Shown: positions 54,314 to 64,000 of the stretch, one piece after another
Position numbering within the stretch: position 1 is the stretch's first letter
Layout: every line of letters begins with the position of its first letter
Source of the DNA: Nocardioides cavernaquae
GTDB lineage: Bacteria; Actinomycetota; Actinomycetes; Propionibacteriales; Nocardioidaceae
Direction: 5' to 3'
Length of the DNA stretch: 64,000 nucleotides
Assembly: GCF_003600895.1 (NCBI RefSeq)
Contig: NZ_QYRP01000002.1
Location: 1,178,001 to 1,242,000, forward strand
Translations under genes and position numbers: made by a program
Notes under the pieces: generated by a model
The model's database searches: none
What the model saw: the letters and a program-made list of their open reading frames with translations, nothing else
What the model was told of the DNA's origin: nothing

Positions 54314-54747
54314 CGTGACTCCTCGAAAACTGGGGGATGGCGCCAGTGTTGCGCGCGGTTGGTCAGCCCCCGCTTGTGGCCCCACAGTCGTGCGGCCAAA
54401 CCCCCGGTTTCCGGGAAGGCTCTTCCGTCCATGGCGCACAGGTGTGTCGTATCGAGGAAGAAGGCCCCTCCGCAGCGGGCGCTCTTGGCCGCACACGTGG
54501 GTTTGTCGCCGGTGAACCCACGCATCCCTGAACCGGTGTCAGCAAGCGTGATCTCGACGATCTGTACACCTCCCGCAGGGGTGTAAACCGTCATCGGACG
54601 CGGGACGAACCCGCAGGTCAGCAGCTATTTCACGCACCGACGAGCGGCGCTGGCGACCTGCCGACCGAAGGTCACGGGAAGGGGTGGATGTCCGATGGAA
54701 AATCTGGACCTTCCCGGCAGCACGCGCGCGGGTCAATACTGCCAACC
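54314..54747. other. divergent intergenic region with a palindrome
   Basis: About 430 bases between two divergent short-chain dehydrogenases. Contains an inverted repeat TACACC-N9-GGTGTA (54565-54585) of operator type and presumably both promoters. Open frames here (for example one starting at 54594 on the minus strand) have no supporting similarity. Confidence 0.4.
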
Positions 54748-58367: not shown

Positions 58368-58422
58368 CCCTTCACACCCTTGACACCCTGTGTTTACAAA
58401 AGGAGACTGGGCGTCAAGAGAG

Positions 58423-58447
58423 TTTACAGATCGGCTCCATTTGTAAA
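58423..58447. promoter_or_regulatory. TTTACA-N13-TGTAAA operator, alkB copy 1
   Basis: Perfect 6-bp inverted arms with a 13-base spacer, 36 bases before the start codon. A TTGACAC (-35-like) and an additional TTTACA (58393) lie upstream. The same structure precedes the two other alkB genes. Confidence 0.75.
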
Positions 58448-58482
58448 GAGTCGGTCTGGACGAAGGATCCGGAGGCGCACCA

Positions 58483-59994
58483 ATGACTGATCCCACGGCG
58501 GGCACCGTTCGCGACGGCACGACCGGCATCGACGGCGAGGAGTGGAAGGACGGCAAGAAGTACGCCTGGCTCCTGGGCATCGTCGTCCCGATCCTGCCGC
58601 TCCTCGGCATCATGGGGGCCACCGGCCTGGACTGGAAGTGGGCGCTCTGGATCGGGCCCATCGCGATCTTCGTGGTCATCGCCCTGCTCGACGTGCTGCT
58701 CGGCCTCGACGGCAAGAACCCGCCGGAGGAGATGATCGACGAGCTCGAGAACAACCGTTACTACCGCTGGGTGACCTACGCCTACCTGCCGTTCCAGTAC
58801 GCCGGGCTCGCCGCCGTCATGTACTTCATCGCGGTGGGCAATCCGTTCGCGGCGGTCGCCGACCTGTTCGGCACCGTCCCCGGCGCCGGGATCTTCGACG
58901 AGGTCACGCTCTCCGTCTGGGACAAGATCGGCGTCGCGATCACCGCCGGCTGCGTCGCGGGCATCGGGATCAACACCGCGCACGAGCTGGGCCACAAGAA
59001 GGAGTCGGTCGAGCGCTGGCTCTCCAAGATCGCGCTCGCCCAGTCGTTCTACGGTCACTTCTACATCGAGCACAACCGGGGCCACCACGTCCGCGTGGCC
59101 ACGCCTGAGGACCCGGCTTCCTCGCGGCTCGGGGAGACCTTCTACGAGTTCTGGCCGCGGACCGTGTCGGGCTCGCTGAAGTCGGCGTGGGAGCTCGAGG
59201 CCAAGCGCTACAAGCGCAAGGGCACGCACCCGTTCCACCTCGGCAACGAGGTGCTCAACGCCTGGGCCATGTCGGTCGTGCTCTTCGGTGGCCTGATCGC
59301 GTGGCTCGGCGTCGGCATCGCGCCGTACCTGCTGATCAACATCGTGTTCGGCTTCTCGCTGCTGGAGGTCGTCAACTACCTCGAGCACTACGGCATGCTG
59401 CGCCAGAAGGTCGGTCCCGAGGGCAAGCAGCGCTACGAGCGCGTCGCCCCGCGGCACTCGTGGAACTCCAACAACCGGGTGACCAACATCTTCCTGTACC
59501 ACCTGCAGCGCCACTCGGACCACCACGCGAACCCCACCCGCCGCTACCAGGCCCTGCGCGACTTCGAAGAGGCCCCGGTGCTGCCGTGCGGCTACGCCGG
59601 CGCCATCGTCCTCGCGGTCATTCCGCCCGTCTGGCGACGCGTGATGGACAAGAAGGTGCTCTCCCACCTCGGCGGCGACATCACCCTCGCCAACATCCAG
59701 CCCCGCAAGAGGGCGTACTACTACGAGAAGTACGCCGCGGCGCCGCACGAGGTCGTGCCCGTCGCCGACGACGTCACTGCGCACTCCTTCGACAACGTCG
59801 AGGTCCTCGCGGCGAAGTGCCCGGGTTGCTCCTACGTCTACGAGGTCGCGGCAGGTGACGAGCACGAGGGCTGGGCCGCCGGCACGGCGTGGGCCGAGAT
59901 CCCCGACACCTGGTGCTGCCCGGACTGCGGGGTGCGCGAGAAGGTCGACTTCATCGCGGTCGACCCGGAGACCCTGAAGGTCGACGCCCGCTGA
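58483..59994 (+). CDS. alkB: alkane 1-monooxygenase-rubredoxin fusion, copy 1
   Basis: Integral membrane di-iron hydroxylase that oxidises the terminal carbon of n-alkanes, with its electron donor rubredoxin fused at the C terminus. 503 residues: TM helices in the first 150, His boxes HELGHKKESVERW (about residue 167), EHNRGHHVRVATPEDPASS (about 197), LQRHSDHHANPTRRY (about 343), also NYLEHYGM; rubredoxin from about 445 with CPGCSYVYEV and CCPDCGVREK. GGAGG-type site before the ATG. Confidence 0.96.
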   Translation: MTDPTAGTVRDGTTGIDGEEWKDGKKYAWLLGIVVPILPLLGIMGATGLDWKWALWIGPIAIFVVIALLDVLLGLDGKNPPEEMIDELENNRYYRWVTYAYLPFQYAGLAAVMYFIAVGNPFAAVADLFGTVPGAGIFDEVTLSVWDKIGVAITAGCVAGIGINTAHELGHKKESVERWLSKIALAQSFYGHFYIEHNRGHHVRVATPEDPASSRLGETFYEFWPRTVSGSLKSAWELEAKRYKRKGTHPFHLGNEVLNAWAMSVVLFGGLIAWLGVGIAPYLLINIVFGFSLLEVVNYLEHYGMLRQKVGPEGKQRYERVAPRHSWNSNNRVTNIFLYHLQRHSDHHANPTRRYQALRDFEEAPVLPCGYAGAIVLAVIPPVWRRVMDKKVLSHLGGDITLANIQPRKRAYYYEKYAAAPHEVVPVADDVTAHSFDNVEVLAAKCPGCSYVYEVAAGDEHEGWAAGTAWAEIPDTWCCPDCGVREKVDFIAVDPETLKVDAR

Positions 59995-60102
59995 CCTGAG
60001 GCCCGGCAGCCGGAGGCTCAACGGCCGGACCAGACCGCGGGTGTTGTCTCGAACACCATGTCCTTGACACCTGTATGAACGTCATGCGAGCCTCCGTGAG
60101 GT

Positions 60103-60127
60103 TTTACAGGGGGAGGGCTCTTGTAAA
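60103..60127. promoter_or_regulatory. TTTACA-N13-TGTAAA operator, alkB copy 2
   Basis: Same arms and spacer as in front of copies 1 and 3. A TTGACAC lies about 40 bases upstream. Confidence 0.75.
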
Positions 60128-60152
60128 GGGAGAGTCTGAGGAGGCTCGCAAC

Positions 60153-61685
60153 ATGATCGATCCGACCGCTGGCACCGTCCCCGTGGGGTCCACGGAGGCA
60201 TGGAAGGACAAGAAGCGCTACCTGTGGCTTCTCGGCCTCATGGTCCCGGGCTTCGGCATCCTGGCCGTGGTGGCCTATGCCTACACCGACTGGTGGTGGC
60301 TGCTGCTCGCCGGGCCGGCTCTGGTCAACGTGATCATCCCGGTCTTCGACCTCATCTTCGGCAAGGACTCGTCCAATCCGCCGGACGAGGTGATCGAGGC
60401 GCTCGAGAACGACAAGTACTACCGCTGGGTGGTCTACGCGTTCCTGCCGCTGCAGTTCTTCATCCTCTGGGCGGTCTTCTACCTGGTCACCCAGGGCAAC
60501 CCGATCCTCGCCGTCACCAACCTGCTCAACATCACCGACTGGGCCGCCGCCAACCTCGGCGCTGACCTGGTCCGCCCGATGGCCGAGAACGGCGCCTCCG
60601 ACCTGACCTGGTTCGAGAAGACGTCGATTGCCTTCTCCGCCGCCGCCGTCATGGGCATCGGCATCAACACTGCGCACGAGCTGGGCCACAAGAAGGAGTC
60701 GGTCGAGCGCTGGCTCTCGAAGATCGCCCTTGCGCCGACCTTCTACGGCCACTTCTACATCGAGCACAACCGGGGTCACCACGTCCGCGTCGCCACCCCC
60801 GAGGACCCGGCCTCCTCGCGCCTGGGCGAGTCCTTCTACACGTTCTGGTTCCGCACCGTCTCGGGTTCCTTCAAGAGCGCCTGGGAGCTCGAGGCCAAGC
60901 GCTACAAGCGCAAGGGCACGCACCCGTTCCACCTGGGCAACGACGTGCTCAACGCGTGGCTGATGTCTGCGGTGCTCTTCGGTGCCTCGATCGCCTACTT
61001 CGGCATCGGGCTGCTCCCGTACGCGCTGGTCATCATCGTCGCCGGCTTCTCGCTGCTGGAGATCATCAACTACGTCGAGCACTACGGCCTCTGCCGCCAG
61101 AAGGTCGGTCCGCCCGAGCGCCAGCGCTACGAGCGGGTCGCCCCGCGCCACTCGTGGAACTCGAACAACATCGTCACCAACATCTTCCTGTACCACCTGC
61201 AGCGTCACTCGGACCACCACGCGAACCCGGTCCGCCGCTACCAGGCGCTGCGCGACTTCGAGGAGTCCCCGGCGCTGCCGACCGGCTACGCGGGCACGCT
61301 GACGCTGGCGCTGTTCCCGCCGCTGTGGCGCAAGGTCATGGACGACCGCGTCTTCCACCACATCGGCAACGACATCACCCAGGCCAACATCCAGCCGAGC
61401 AAGCGCGAGAAGTACTTCGCGAAGTACGGCACCGCCGAGCAGCAGCGGGTCGAGGCGGGCGAGGACGTGACGGCGCAGCACTTCGACATCGAGGTCCTCG
61501 CGGCGAAGTGCCCGGGTTGCTCCTACGTCTACGAGGTCGCGGCGGGCAACGAGCACGAGGGCTTCGCCGCCGGCACCGCCTGGAACGAGATCCCGGACGA
61601 CTGGACCTGCCCCGACTGCGGCGTGCGGGAGAAGCTCGACTTCGTCCCGGTCGACCCGGAGACCCTCCAGGTCGAGGCCAGCTGA
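60153..61685 (+). CDS. alkB: alkane 1-monooxygenase-rubredoxin fusion, copy 2
   Basis: 510 residues. Same domains: His boxes HELGHKKESVERW, EHNRGHHVRVATPEDPASS, LQRHSDHHANPVRRY, then fused rubredoxin (CPGCSYVYEV..CPDCGVREKLDFV). The N-terminal third and linker differ most from copies 1 and 3 (for example an inserted NLLNITDWAAANLGADL). ATG at 60153 chosen from GAGG upstream; an earlier ATG at 60075 lies upstream of the operator. Confidence 0.96.
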   Translation: MIDPTAGTVPVGSTEAWKDKKRYLWLLGLMVPGFGILAVVAYAYTDWWWLLLAGPALVNVIIPVFDLIFGKDSSNPPDEVIEALENDKYYRWVVYAFLPLQFFILWAVFYLVTQGNPILAVTNLLNITDWAAANLGADLVRPMAENGASDLTWFEKTSIAFSAAAVMGIGINTAHELGHKKESVERWLSKIALAPTFYGHFYIEHNRGHHVRVATPEDPASSRLGESFYTFWFRTVSGSFKSAWELEAKRYKRKGTHPFHLGNDVLNAWLMSAVLFGASIAYFGIGLLPYALVIIVAGFSLLEIINYVEHYGLCRQKVGPPERQRYERVAPRHSWNSNNIVTNIFLYHLQRHSDHHANPVRRYQALRDFEESPALPTGYAGTLTLALFPPLWRKVMDDRVFHHIGNDITQANIQPSKREKYFAKYGTAEQQRVEAGEDVTAQHFDIEVLAAKCPGCSYVYEVAAGNEHEGFAAGTAWNEIPDDWTCPDCGVREKLDFVPVDPETLQVEAS

Positions 61686-61724
61686 CGGGAGAACCGAACC
61701 CGGCGGGCCATGGCCCGCACCGTC

Positions 61725-61756
61725 CAGGCGGCGTACTTTCTCAAGTACGCCGCCTG
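61725..61756 (+). terminator. terminator after alkB copy 2
   Basis: 14-bp perfect stem CAGGCGGCGTACTT / AAGTACGCCGCCTG with a TCTC loop. A 16-bp GCGGGCCATGGCCCGC palindrome lies just before it. This supports separate transcription of copy 3. Confidence 0.75.
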
Positions 61757-61880
61757 CGGCGTTTCTCGGGCGTCCTCGCCTCCAGCGCTGCACGTGGTGC
61801 GGCTCACACTGTTTGGAACGCAGTGTTCCCGACACCTTGTTGACACGCCGTCTTTACAAATGTGACCGTTGTGTCAACGC

Positions 61881-61905
61881 TTTACAAGCAACCTGCTTTT
61901 GTAAA
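61881..61905. promoter_or_regulatory. TTTACA-N13-TGTAAA operator, alkB copy 3
   Basis: Same arms and 13-base spacer; a TTGACAC and an additional TTTACA (61853) lie upstream as in copy 1. Confidence 0.75.
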
Positions 61906-61928
61906 AGGCAAGCCGAGGAGGCTCGACG

Positions 61929-63443
61929 ATGGTGGATCCGACCGCCGGTACCGTTCCAGCAGGAACGACCGAAGACTGGAAGGACAAGAAGCGCTACCTG
62001 TGGCTTCTCGGCCTGCTGATCCCGGGCCTCGGCATCATCGCCGTCCTGGCCTACGCGCAGTTCGAGCTCGGCGTCGTGCTCTGGGCCGGCCCGATCCTGA
62101 TCCTCGTGGTCGTCCCGATCCTCGACCTGATCTTCGGGCTCGACGCCTCCAACCCGCCTGACGACATCATCGAGGCGCTGGAGAACGACAAGTACTACCG
62201 CTGGATCACCTACCTGTACCTGCCGATCCAGTACTTCGTGCTGATCGCTGCGATGTACATGGTCGTCGTCGGCAACCCGATCGCAGCGCTGGCCGATCTC
62301 GTCGGCATCAAGGATGCGATCGACGGCAGTGCCTTCTCGCAGCTGGTCCGCGACTTCGACCTCGCGTTGTGGGAGAAGATCGGCCTGGCCCTGTCCGTCG
62401 GCGCGATCGGCGGCATCGGCATCAACACCGCCCACGAGCTGGGCCACAAGAAGGAGGCCAACGAGCGTTGGCTCTCCAAGATCGCGCTGGCCCAGTCGGC
62501 GTACGGTCACTTCTACATCGAGCACAACCGCGGCCACCACGTCCGCGTCGCGACCCCGGAGGACCCCGCGTCCTCGCGCCTGGGTGAGAGTTTCTACGCC
62601 TTCTGGCCGCGCACGGTGTCCGGCTCGCTGAAGTCGGCCTGGGAGCTCGAGGCCAAGCGCTACCGCCGCAAGGGCACGCACCCGTTCCACTGGGGCAACG
62701 ACGTCCTGAACGCCTGGCTGATGACCGTGGTGCTCTTCGGTGGCCTCACCCTGTGGCTCGGCGTCGGCGTCCTGCCGTTCCTCGCGCTCCAGGCCGTCAT
62801 CGGGTTCTCGCTGCTGGAGGTCATCAACTACCTCGAGCACTACGGCATGAAGCGCCAGAAGGTCGGCCCTGAGGGCAAGCAGCGCTACGAGCGTGTCGCT
62901 CCGCGCCACTCGTGGAACAGCAACAACATCCCGACCAACGTGGTGCTCTACCACCTGCAGCGTCACTCGGACCACCACGCCAACCCGGTCCGTCGCTACC
63001 AGGCGCTGCGCGACTTCGAGGAGTCCCCGACGCTGCCCACGGGCTACGCCGGCTCGCTGACGATCGCCCTGTTCCCGCCGCTGTGGCGCAAGGTCATGGA
63101 CCAGCGCGTCGTCGACCACCTCGGTGGGGACATCACGCTGGCCAACATCGCGCCGCGCAAGAAGGACAAGTACTACGCGAAGTACGGCGTGGAGCTCGAG
63201 GGCGCCTTTGTGATCGGCGAGGACGTCACCGCGCAGAGCTTCGACACCGAGGTGCTCGCAGCGAAGTGCCCGGGTTGCTCCTACGTCTACGAGGTCGCTG
63301 TCGGCAACGAGCACGAGGGCTTCGCCGCCGGCACCGCGTGGAATGAGATTCCGGCCGACTGGACGTGTCCTGACTGCGGTGTCCGGGAGAAGATGGACTT
63401 CATCCCGGTCAACCCTGAGACGCTGAAGGTGGAAACGCGATGA
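61929..63443 (+). CDS. alkB: alkane 1-monooxygenase-rubredoxin fusion, copy 3
   Basis: 504 residues with the full AlkB His-box set (HELGHKKEANERW, EHNRGHHVRVATPEDPASS, LQRHSDHHANPVRRY) and a C-terminal rubredoxin (CPGCSYVYEVAVGNEHEGF..CPDCGVREKMDFI). Differs from the others in the N-terminal TM region and in the linker before rubredoxin (KDKYYAKYGVELEGAFVIGED). GAGGAGG ahead of the ATG. Its stop overlaps the ferredoxin ATG by 4 bases, so the two are coupled. Confidence 0.96.
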   Translation: MVDPTAGTVPAGTTEDWKDKKRYLWLLGLLIPGLGIIAVLAYAQFELGVVLWAGPILILVVVPILDLIFGLDASNPPDDIIEALENDKYYRWITYLYLPIQYFVLIAAMYMVVVGNPIAALADLVGIKDAIDGSAFSQLVRDFDLALWEKIGLALSVGAIGGIGINTAHELGHKKEANERWLSKIALAQSAYGHFYIEHNRGHHVRVATPEDPASSRLGESFYAFWPRTVSGSLKSAWELEAKRYRRKGTHPFHWGNDVLNAWLMTVVLFGGLTLWLGVGVLPFLALQAVIGFSLLEVINYLEHYGMKRQKVGPEGKQRYERVAPRHSWNSNNIPTNVVLYHLQRHSDHHANPVRRYQALRDFEESPTLPTGYAGSLTIALFPPLWRKVMDQRVVDHLGGDITLANIAPRKKDKYYAKYGVELEGAFVIGEDVTAQSFDTEVLAAKCPGCSYVYEVAVGNEHEGFAAGTAWNEIPADWTCPDCGVREKMDFIPVNPETLKVETR

Positions 63444-63631
63444 AGATCGTCGTCGATCGCGACAAGTGCGAAGGACTCGGCATGTGCGAGTCCATGGCTC
63501 ACGAGTACTTTGAGGTGGATGACGACGACATGCTCGTCATCCACGACGAGAACCCGCCGGAGGAGGACCGCAAGATGGTCCTCGCCGCGGTCAACTCCTG
63601 CCCGGTCCTCGCGCTGACGCTGGAAGGCTGA
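63440..63631 (+). CDS. small ferredoxin (3Fe-4S/4Fe-4S type)
   Basis: 63 residues: MKIVVDRDKCEGLGMCESMAHEYFEV and NSCPVLALTLEG. The Cys spacing (Cys-x5-Cys, then Cys-Pro) is that of the actinobacterial P450-associated ferredoxins with a single cluster. Overlaps alkB copy 3. It may supply electrons to rubredoxin or another oxygenase; no reductase gene is seen here. Confidence 0.88.
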   Translation: MKIVVDRDKCEGLGMCESMAHEYFEVDDDDMLVIHDENPPEEDRKMVLAAVNSCPVLALTLEG

Positions 63632-63770: not shown

Positions 63771-64000
63771 TTGTCCGCCATGACCGTGGGGATCGCCGAG
63801 ACGGCCACGATCCGCGACCGCATCGTCGTGGCTGCGACCGAGGTGACCACGACCCAGGGCTGGTCATCGGTCACGATGTCCCGGCTGGCCGACGCGGTCG
63901 GCGTCAGCCGCCAGACCGTCTACAACGAGATCGGCACCAAGACCGCGCTGGCGGAGGCGATGATCCTCGGCGAGCTCGCTCGCTTCCTCGAGCGTGTCGA
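63771..64000 (+). CDS. TetR-family regulator (cut by window end)
   Basis: At least 76 residues before the window ends: DRIVVAATEVTTTQGWSSVTMSRLADAVGVSRQTVYNEIGTKTALAEAMILGELARFL, a clear TetR helix-turn-helix. TTG at 63771 is favoured (AAAGG 7-11 bases upstream), ATG at 63780 is possible. Its location suggests it senses alkanes or their products and acts on the shared alkB operators; not shown. Confidence 0.9.
   Translation, partial: MSAMTVGIAETATIRDRIVVAATEVTTTQGWSSVTMSRLADAVGVSRQTVYNEIGTKTALAEAMILGELARFLERV

Follow-up and report, generated by a model that had tools for sequence, protein, structure and literature searches.

What recognises the short palindrome that precedes each of three alkB genes in Nocardioides cavernaquae? 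The genes follow one another near the end of the window analysed here, a stretch of 64,000 nucleotides (assembly GCF_003600895.1, contig NZ_QYRP01000002.1, positions 1,178,001 to 1,242,000), and downstream of them, in the same orientation, lies a gene for a TetR-type regulator. Each alkB gene has the motif TTTACA-N13-TGTAAA in its promoter region, and comparison across genomes indicates that the neighbouring TetR protein, a repressor of the AlkX type, very probably binds at this motif.

A search of the whole 3.47-Mb genome identified three exact copies of the motif, all at these alkB genes and at exactly the coordinates given in the first-pass annotation, and no match to the reversed control pattern; the motif is thus not common at random sites. 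Within the window, six matches with at most two mismatches were found, where shuffled sequences gave an expectation of 0.02. All 12 arm bases are identical in every pair of the three copies, whereas just 4-5 of the 13 spacer bases are in common, as are 15-20 of the 60 bases upstream in an unaligned comparison, so that the earlier description of conserved arms and gap with unconserved spacer and flanks is borne out. The extra TTTACA noticed previously 28-30 bases upstream of copies 1 and 3 is also present, and forms the left arm of a further palindrome with the same layout, located 30 bp upstream in copy 1 and 28 bp upstream in copy 3. We refer to this upstream palindrome as operator 1 and to the exact copy as operator 2 (Table 1). 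No second palindrome upstream of alkB copy 2 was found in the promoter-site comparison. A wider consensus, TTKACA-N13-TGTMAA (the relaxed motif), has five matches in the genome, four of them in these alkB promoters, and none for its control, the matches being counted on the same promoters from which the consensus was derived. The fifth match (C2:1096251) belongs to a longer hairpin-like repeat with no alkB or aldehyde dehydrogenase (ALDH) gene beside it and was not counted as an operator. A match with one mismatch to the exact motif at 54563-54587 was set aside as a different, nearly continuous palindrome; it is located between two divergent short-chain dehydrogenase genes and is possibly the site of another regulator.

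The regulator is an AlkX relative by sequence and fold. The protein of 194 amino acids contains TetR_N and TetR_C_35 domains above cut-off, and its nearest sequences in the PDB are AlkX from Dietzia (5ydp) and AlkX from Mycobacterium tuberculosis (Rv3249c; 5d1w), which were retrieved at 1.9e-17 and 8e-16 in a sequence search (next 1e-6) and at 6e-24 and 1e-23 in a profile search (next 3e-9). The ortholog from N. phosphati, 70% identical to the protein studied here, was modelled with a mean predicted local distance difference test (pLDDT) value of 86, and Foldseek comparisons with this model ordered by E-value showed AlkX proteins at ranks 1-7, with alignment identities of 26-30%. Template-modelling (TM) scores in the same comparison were higher for M. 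tuberculosis FasR (up to 0.74) than for AlkX (up to 0.69).

Occurrence of the motif across the genus largely follows that of the regulator and alkB. Our sample comprised 147 genomes, 130 of which have a TetR ortholog, defined by an E-value below 1e-50. The exact motif was identified in 56 of the 147 genomes and its control in none, and alkB adjoined the exact site in all 29 loci examined, one per genome, from the 55 other matching genomes. The relaxed motif was present anywhere in the genome in 123 of the 126 genomes with both TetR ortholog and alkB, in none of the four with the ortholog but no alkB, in one of the four with alkB only and in one of the 13 with neither; its control gave one site in all 147 genomes (in G140). 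Nineteen of 20 genomes chosen for missing AlkX, alkB or their linkage were entirely without the site.

The same association is seen at the level of individual genes. We compared 100 regions from the genus, 93 centred on TetR and seven on alkB genes without TetR; 86 contained alkB and the TetR ortholog, seven TetR alone and seven alkB alone. All 89 alkB genes with TetR in the region, that is, those of the 86 regions and the three of the window, are preceded by a palindrome with a 13-bp gap that departs from the exact motif at two positions at most (at none in 22 genes, at one in 54 and at two in 13), and 87 of them by at least one perfect relaxed site. Other gap lengths, from 6 to 21, mostly gave 3-5 mismatches at the same genes. 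Tandem sites were observed in 73 of the 89 promoters, with start-to-start distances of 28 (4 promoters), 29 (3), 30 (55) and 31 bp (11). Six of the seven alkB genes without TetR in the region have no site within two mismatches of the exact motif, the exception being that of genome G128 (77% complete) with two perfect relaxed sites; one of these six is a further alkB-like gene of N. cavernaquae itself (C2:2270165, locus L178). All 149 perfect relaxed sites in the 100 regions (716,538 bases, selected around TetR or alkB) are located at most 220 bp upstream of alkB or TetR. At two loci, L143 and L186, some 11-12 kb separate alkB from the TetR gene downstream, and both alkB genes still have two operators.

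Outside the genus, a class-level search at 1e-30 detected the TetR in 80 of 394 genomes. Forty regions were compared; among the 25 with alkB, the relaxed site upstream of that gene is perfect in 21, has one mismatch in one and is lacking in three, while in the 15 without alkB the site before TetR's own gene is perfect in four cases, has one mismatch in three and is lacking in eight. The perfect relaxed sites in these regions (32 of 32) are again located at most 220 bp upstream of alkB or TetR. A scan for the tandem pattern that was not tied to alkB, covering public contigs from one genome each of 84,980 species, gave at least 116 matches, and among the matches listed 109 of 116 precede alkB by 18-140 bp; these come from Nocardioides, Pimelobacter, Lentzea, Amycolatopsis, Intrasporangium and others. 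Five of the other seven, in Boudabousia, Rhizobium, Cellulophaga, a Bacteroidia bacterium and Adhaeribacter, may be due to chance; the remaining two are L324, at the edge of its stretch, and L334 from Tsukamurella. At the latter locus (L334:1190-3744) the tandem sites are flanked by a gene for an AlkX-like TetR (32% identical) on one side and by a divergently oriented gene for a GMC oxidoreductase on the other, and no alkB was found within the 8-kb locus.

Many of the genomes listed have a further relaxed site besides the alkB pair, and all 20 such sites examined are located 49-93 bp upstream of an ALDH gene followed by a GMC oxidoreductase gene. The dehydrogenase is classified by NCBIfam as a succinic semialdehyde dehydrogenase, above cut-off, and the oxidoreductase resembles the NCBIfam cholesterol oxidase model, below cut-off. 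The corresponding sequence in this genome, TGTACA-N13-TGTAAA at C2:2030513, has one mismatch and lies 59-60 bp upstream of the dehydrogenase gene. Test loci were collected by dehydrogenase similarity and comprised the best 30 and those of 30 picked genomes (G113 is in both); the site counts of the picked genomes were known beforehand, and they were chosen to add AlkX-less and more distant ones. With a limit of two mismatches to the relaxed consensus, which shuffled ALDH upstream regions reach in 0.3% of cases, the ALDH site was found in 36 of 39 genomes with AlkX and an operator-marked alkB (perfect in 18), in none of five with AlkX but with alkB absent or without operator, and in two of 15 in which no AlkX was found; for 36/39 vs 2/15, Fisher's test gave a p of 4.6e-8 with relatedness ignored. 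G113, which has no alkB and no AlkX, shows four mismatches at the same position, though its dehydrogenase and that of G071, a marked genome, are 90% identical. This second target operon and the usual tandem arrangement were overlooked in the first-pass annotation, whose reading of the motif as a regulator site otherwise stands.

The notion that every site away from alkB is an ALDH site was rejected: those at G041 C23:37399, G092 C1:2081004, G094 C3:724547 and C2:1096251 of the present genome differ. The non-alkB sites of G116 and G133 agree with the ALDH position by coordinates, and two further ones, G144 C38:900 and G004 C7:679, were not placed. The G092 and G094 sites are exact, similar to each other and away from alkB and ALDH genes, and may represent a third target. 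A second palindrome, approximately CTACC-N4-GGTAG, was observed between the AlkX-type site and the ALDH gene in many loci, some 35-60 bp before the start of the ALDH gene (L440-L459, L460-L517). As this palindrome is kept also in several AlkX-less genomes, another regulator may act there.

Systems of this kind have been described in other actinobacteria. The locus is similar to AlkX-alkW1 of Dietzia sp. DQ12-45-1b in that the TetR gene lies downstream of alkB and the regulators are related by sequence and fold; in the Dietzia genome G524 the regulator matches 5ydp at 100%. All six Dietzia loci examined have a 6-13-6 palindrome twice upstream of alkB, 23 bp apart and 48 bp in total, in agreement with the 48-bp AlkX operator, reportedly an inverted repeat bound by two dimers, of a 2016 paper on Dietzia. 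The Dietzia arms, TAGACA or TGGACA, differ from TTKACA, and the distance of 23 bp differs from the 28-31 bp observed here. Also unlike Dietzia, N. cavernaquae has three alkB genes, each with its own operator region, and a predicted second target operon. M. tuberculosis AlkX is likewise a TetR repressor of an adjacent alkB, in alkB-rubAB with separate rubredoxin genes; it shifts the alkB promoter, and palmitate lowers its binding (PMC9430723). Release by long-chain fatty acids is reported for the AlkX homologues of both Dietzia and M. tuberculosis (PMC8784404; PMC9430723). AlkU from Rhodococcus, a TetR repressor encoded at the end of an alk operon, binds the alkB upstream region, where inverted repeats ACAAAT/ATTTGT of another spacing occur, their recognition by AlkU being proposed rather than mapped (PMC6921075). 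That alkB is followed by a TetR gene in Nocardioides and other genera has been mentioned in a transcriptome study of Dietzia (PMC12472514). Searches of the PMC literature, judged by titles and abstract openings, gave no paper with such an operator for Nocardioides or with a GMC-ALDH link to AlkX. The kind of system is itself known; the consensus, the spacing rule, the clade-specific shift described below and the second target are added here.

Taken as a whole, the explanation that we consider highly likely is an AlkX-type TetR operator, with repression of alkB, release by fatty acids and a regulon that includes the ALDH-GMC operon. The first-pass annotation had suggested the site of a dimeric regulator with the terminal TetR as candidate, and the comparative co-occurrence supports this, binding being predicted from sequence. 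Several points weigh against it, beginning with the origin of the relaxed consensus and the relatedness of the compared genomes, which are not independent samples. G039, G111 and G114 have AlkX and alkB, yet no site, and no alkB was found within the ~6.5 kb examined upstream of their TetR; G128 and G076 (89% complete) have sites, including the two ALDH sites in genomes without AlkX mentioned above, and no AlkX was detected in these incomplete genomes. L175, with alkB and no TetR, has four mismatches to the exact motif but only two to the relaxed one. The consensus was not found at 14 loci from other genera of Dietzia's family, and a strict sigma-70 scan gave no promoter at the alkB genes studied here. 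G001, G009 and G044 have AlkX and a marked alkB but no ALDH site, and a simple repressor would not usually be expected to act 49-93 bp from the start codon. In addition, the word 'dehydrogenase' is absent from the main text of the M. tuberculosis AlkX paper (PMC9430723), as are the ALDH and GMC terms looked for there, which leaves room for a mention by locus number.

Some of these points would suit an unlinked regulator, for example an AraC-type activator or a global regulator, that binds the motif while the TetR is a bystander: the sites of G128 and G076, and the missing ALDH site both in the three genomes just named and in the five AlkX genomes without a marked alkB. We regard this as improbable because the sites track this TetR across the genus, because its alkB-less relatives outside the genus have a site before their own gene in seven of 15 cases (at most one mismatch), and because palindromes of this form also occur at the Dietzia AlkX loci.

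The operators also appear to overlap with the alkB promoter. Of the 55 promoters whose palindromes are 30 bp apart, 53 have TTGTCA within the right arm of operator 1, and TAnnnT occurs at base 12 of operator 2 in 66 of the 89 promoters, 17 bp downstream of TTGTCA and thus placed like -35 and -10 boxes. Operator 1 has a right arm that is more constrained than the palindrome requires: counted outward, its third base is G in every tandem promoter (73 of 73), against 25-64% in the other tandem arms, and its seventh base is A in 92%. Promoter and operator elements would therefore share sequence, and the same placement could suggest that the hexamers are simply core promoter elements of a sigma factor. 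Such a reading is very improbable, as the arms are strictly inverted repeats of each other across a 13-bp gap, the clade of the present genome loses the box positions and retains the palindromes, and the ALDH sites are positioned elsewhere relative to their gene. Adjoining the right arm of operator 1 on its inner side, a CCTC sequence was 71-84% conserved per base in the promoters with 30-bp spacing, and no symmetric partner was seen at the left arm.

The loss of the box positions concerns copies 1 and 3 and three near relatives (L198-L200), which do not keep the seventh base, so that TTGTCA is broken. These promoters have TTGACA 13 bp upstream of operator 1, followed at 17-18 bp by GAnnnT, which lies inside operator 1. 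In this genome and its three near relatives, the operator pair consequently appears to be shifted downstream with respect to the promoter. TTGACAC, previously noticed further upstream of all three alkB genes, was found at the -35 positions of Table 1 and is best read as a putative -35 box rather than an operator arm.

The three alkB genes encode fusions of AlkB and rubredoxin that are 65-72% identical. Despite this protein identity, the genes share exact DNA tracts of up to 55 bp (58483-63443), which may point to gene conversion or to constraint on codons. That the sites are alike merely because the alkB genes are copies of each other, without selection, would accord with these identities and tracts and is the least probable reading of all, since spacers and flanks have diverged around arms that are identical at 12 of 12 bases, and since other genera and families show these arms and this gap too, which already contradicts it. 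A recent tandem triplication as the cause of the identical sites was rejected, the three proteins clustering in 0 of 200 bootstrap trees; a single clade of the three was not rejected by the approximately unbiased test (p-AU 0.226). A strong hairpin with a weak T tail at 61725-61756, between copies 2 and 3, is possibly a terminator and is not among the predictions of the terminator scan.

Table 1. Operators, putative promoter boxes and genes of the alkB cluster, in window coordinates.
Feature	Coordinates	Strand	Sequence or domains	Remarks
Operator 1, alkB copy 1	58393..58417	.	TTTACA-N13-CGTCAA	1 mismatch to TTKACA-N13-TGTMAA
Operator 2, alkB copy 1	58423..58447	.	TTTACA-N13-TGTAAA	Exact match
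Sole operator, alkB copy 2	60103..60127	.	TTTACA-N13-TGTAAA	Exact match
Operator 1, alkB copy 3	61853..61877	.	TTTACA-N13-TGTCAA	
Operator 2, alkB copy 3	61881..61905	.	TTTACA-N13-TGTAAA	Exact match
Putative -35 box, copy 1	58380..58385	+	TTGACA	TTGACA equally distant in L198-L200
Tentative -10 box, copy 1	58403..58408	+	GAGACT	17-bp spacing
Putative -35 box, copy 2	60064..60069	+	TTGACA	
Tentative -10 box, copy 2	60088..60093	+	GAGCCT	18-bp spacing
Putative -35 box, copy 3	61840..61845	+	TTGACA	
Tentative -10 box, copy 3	61864..61869	+	GACCGT	18-bp spacing; inside operator 1
alkB copy 1	58483..59994	+	FA_desaturase + Rubredoxin	AlkB-rubredoxin fusion
alkB copy 2	60153..61685	+	FA_desaturase + Rubredoxin	AlkB-rubredoxin fusion
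alkB copy 3	61929..63443	+	FA_desaturase + Rubredoxin	AlkB-rubredoxin fusion
Single-cluster ferredoxin	63440..63631	+		Start overlaps alkB copy 3 stop by 4 bases
TetR regulator, AlkX-like	63780..64000	+		Leaves window; ends at window coordinate 64364

Under the proposed AlkX mechanism, AlkX would bind each 25-bp palindrome TTKACA-N13-TGTMAA, and in most relatives the two palindromes 28-31 bp apart would cover the -35 box and the region from -10 to +1 of the alkB promoter. The centres of the two half-sites of a palindrome are 19 bp apart, a distance that seems large for a single TetR dimer. Without alkane, AlkX would block the alkB promoters by occlusion, and long-chain fatty acids formed from alkanes would release it, giving a positive feedback. 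AlkX would also repress itself if, as is probable, its gene is transcribed together with alkB copy 3. As the same operator precedes the ALDH-GMC operon, the regulon plausibly covers the route from alkane via alcohol and aldehyde to fatty acid. At the dehydrogenase operon AlkX may act as repressor or as activator, because the site seems to be located upstream of the likely promoter. A dispersed three-enzyme pathway under AlkX in Nocardioides and its relatives, marked by a single type of operator, where AlkB (alkane to alcohol) is followed by the GMC oxidoreductase (alcohol to aldehyde) and ALDH (aldehyde to fatty acid) and the end product releases AlkX, is a proposal that we consider evenly balanced between being right and wrong.

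What was observed in one genome becomes a code from which the binding sites of a group of alkane regulators can be predicted. The bases that promoter boxes and operator arms seem to share are a candidate reason for the fixed tandem spacing in most relatives, and the second target offers a route to finding those steps of actinobacterial alkane degradation that convert the alcohol and the aldehyde. If the prediction for the ALDH-GMC operon is true, the 'cholesterol oxidase'-like GMC protein and the 'succinic semialdehyde dehydrogenase' would be enzymes of the alkane pathway, and two annotations would have to be changed in the genus.

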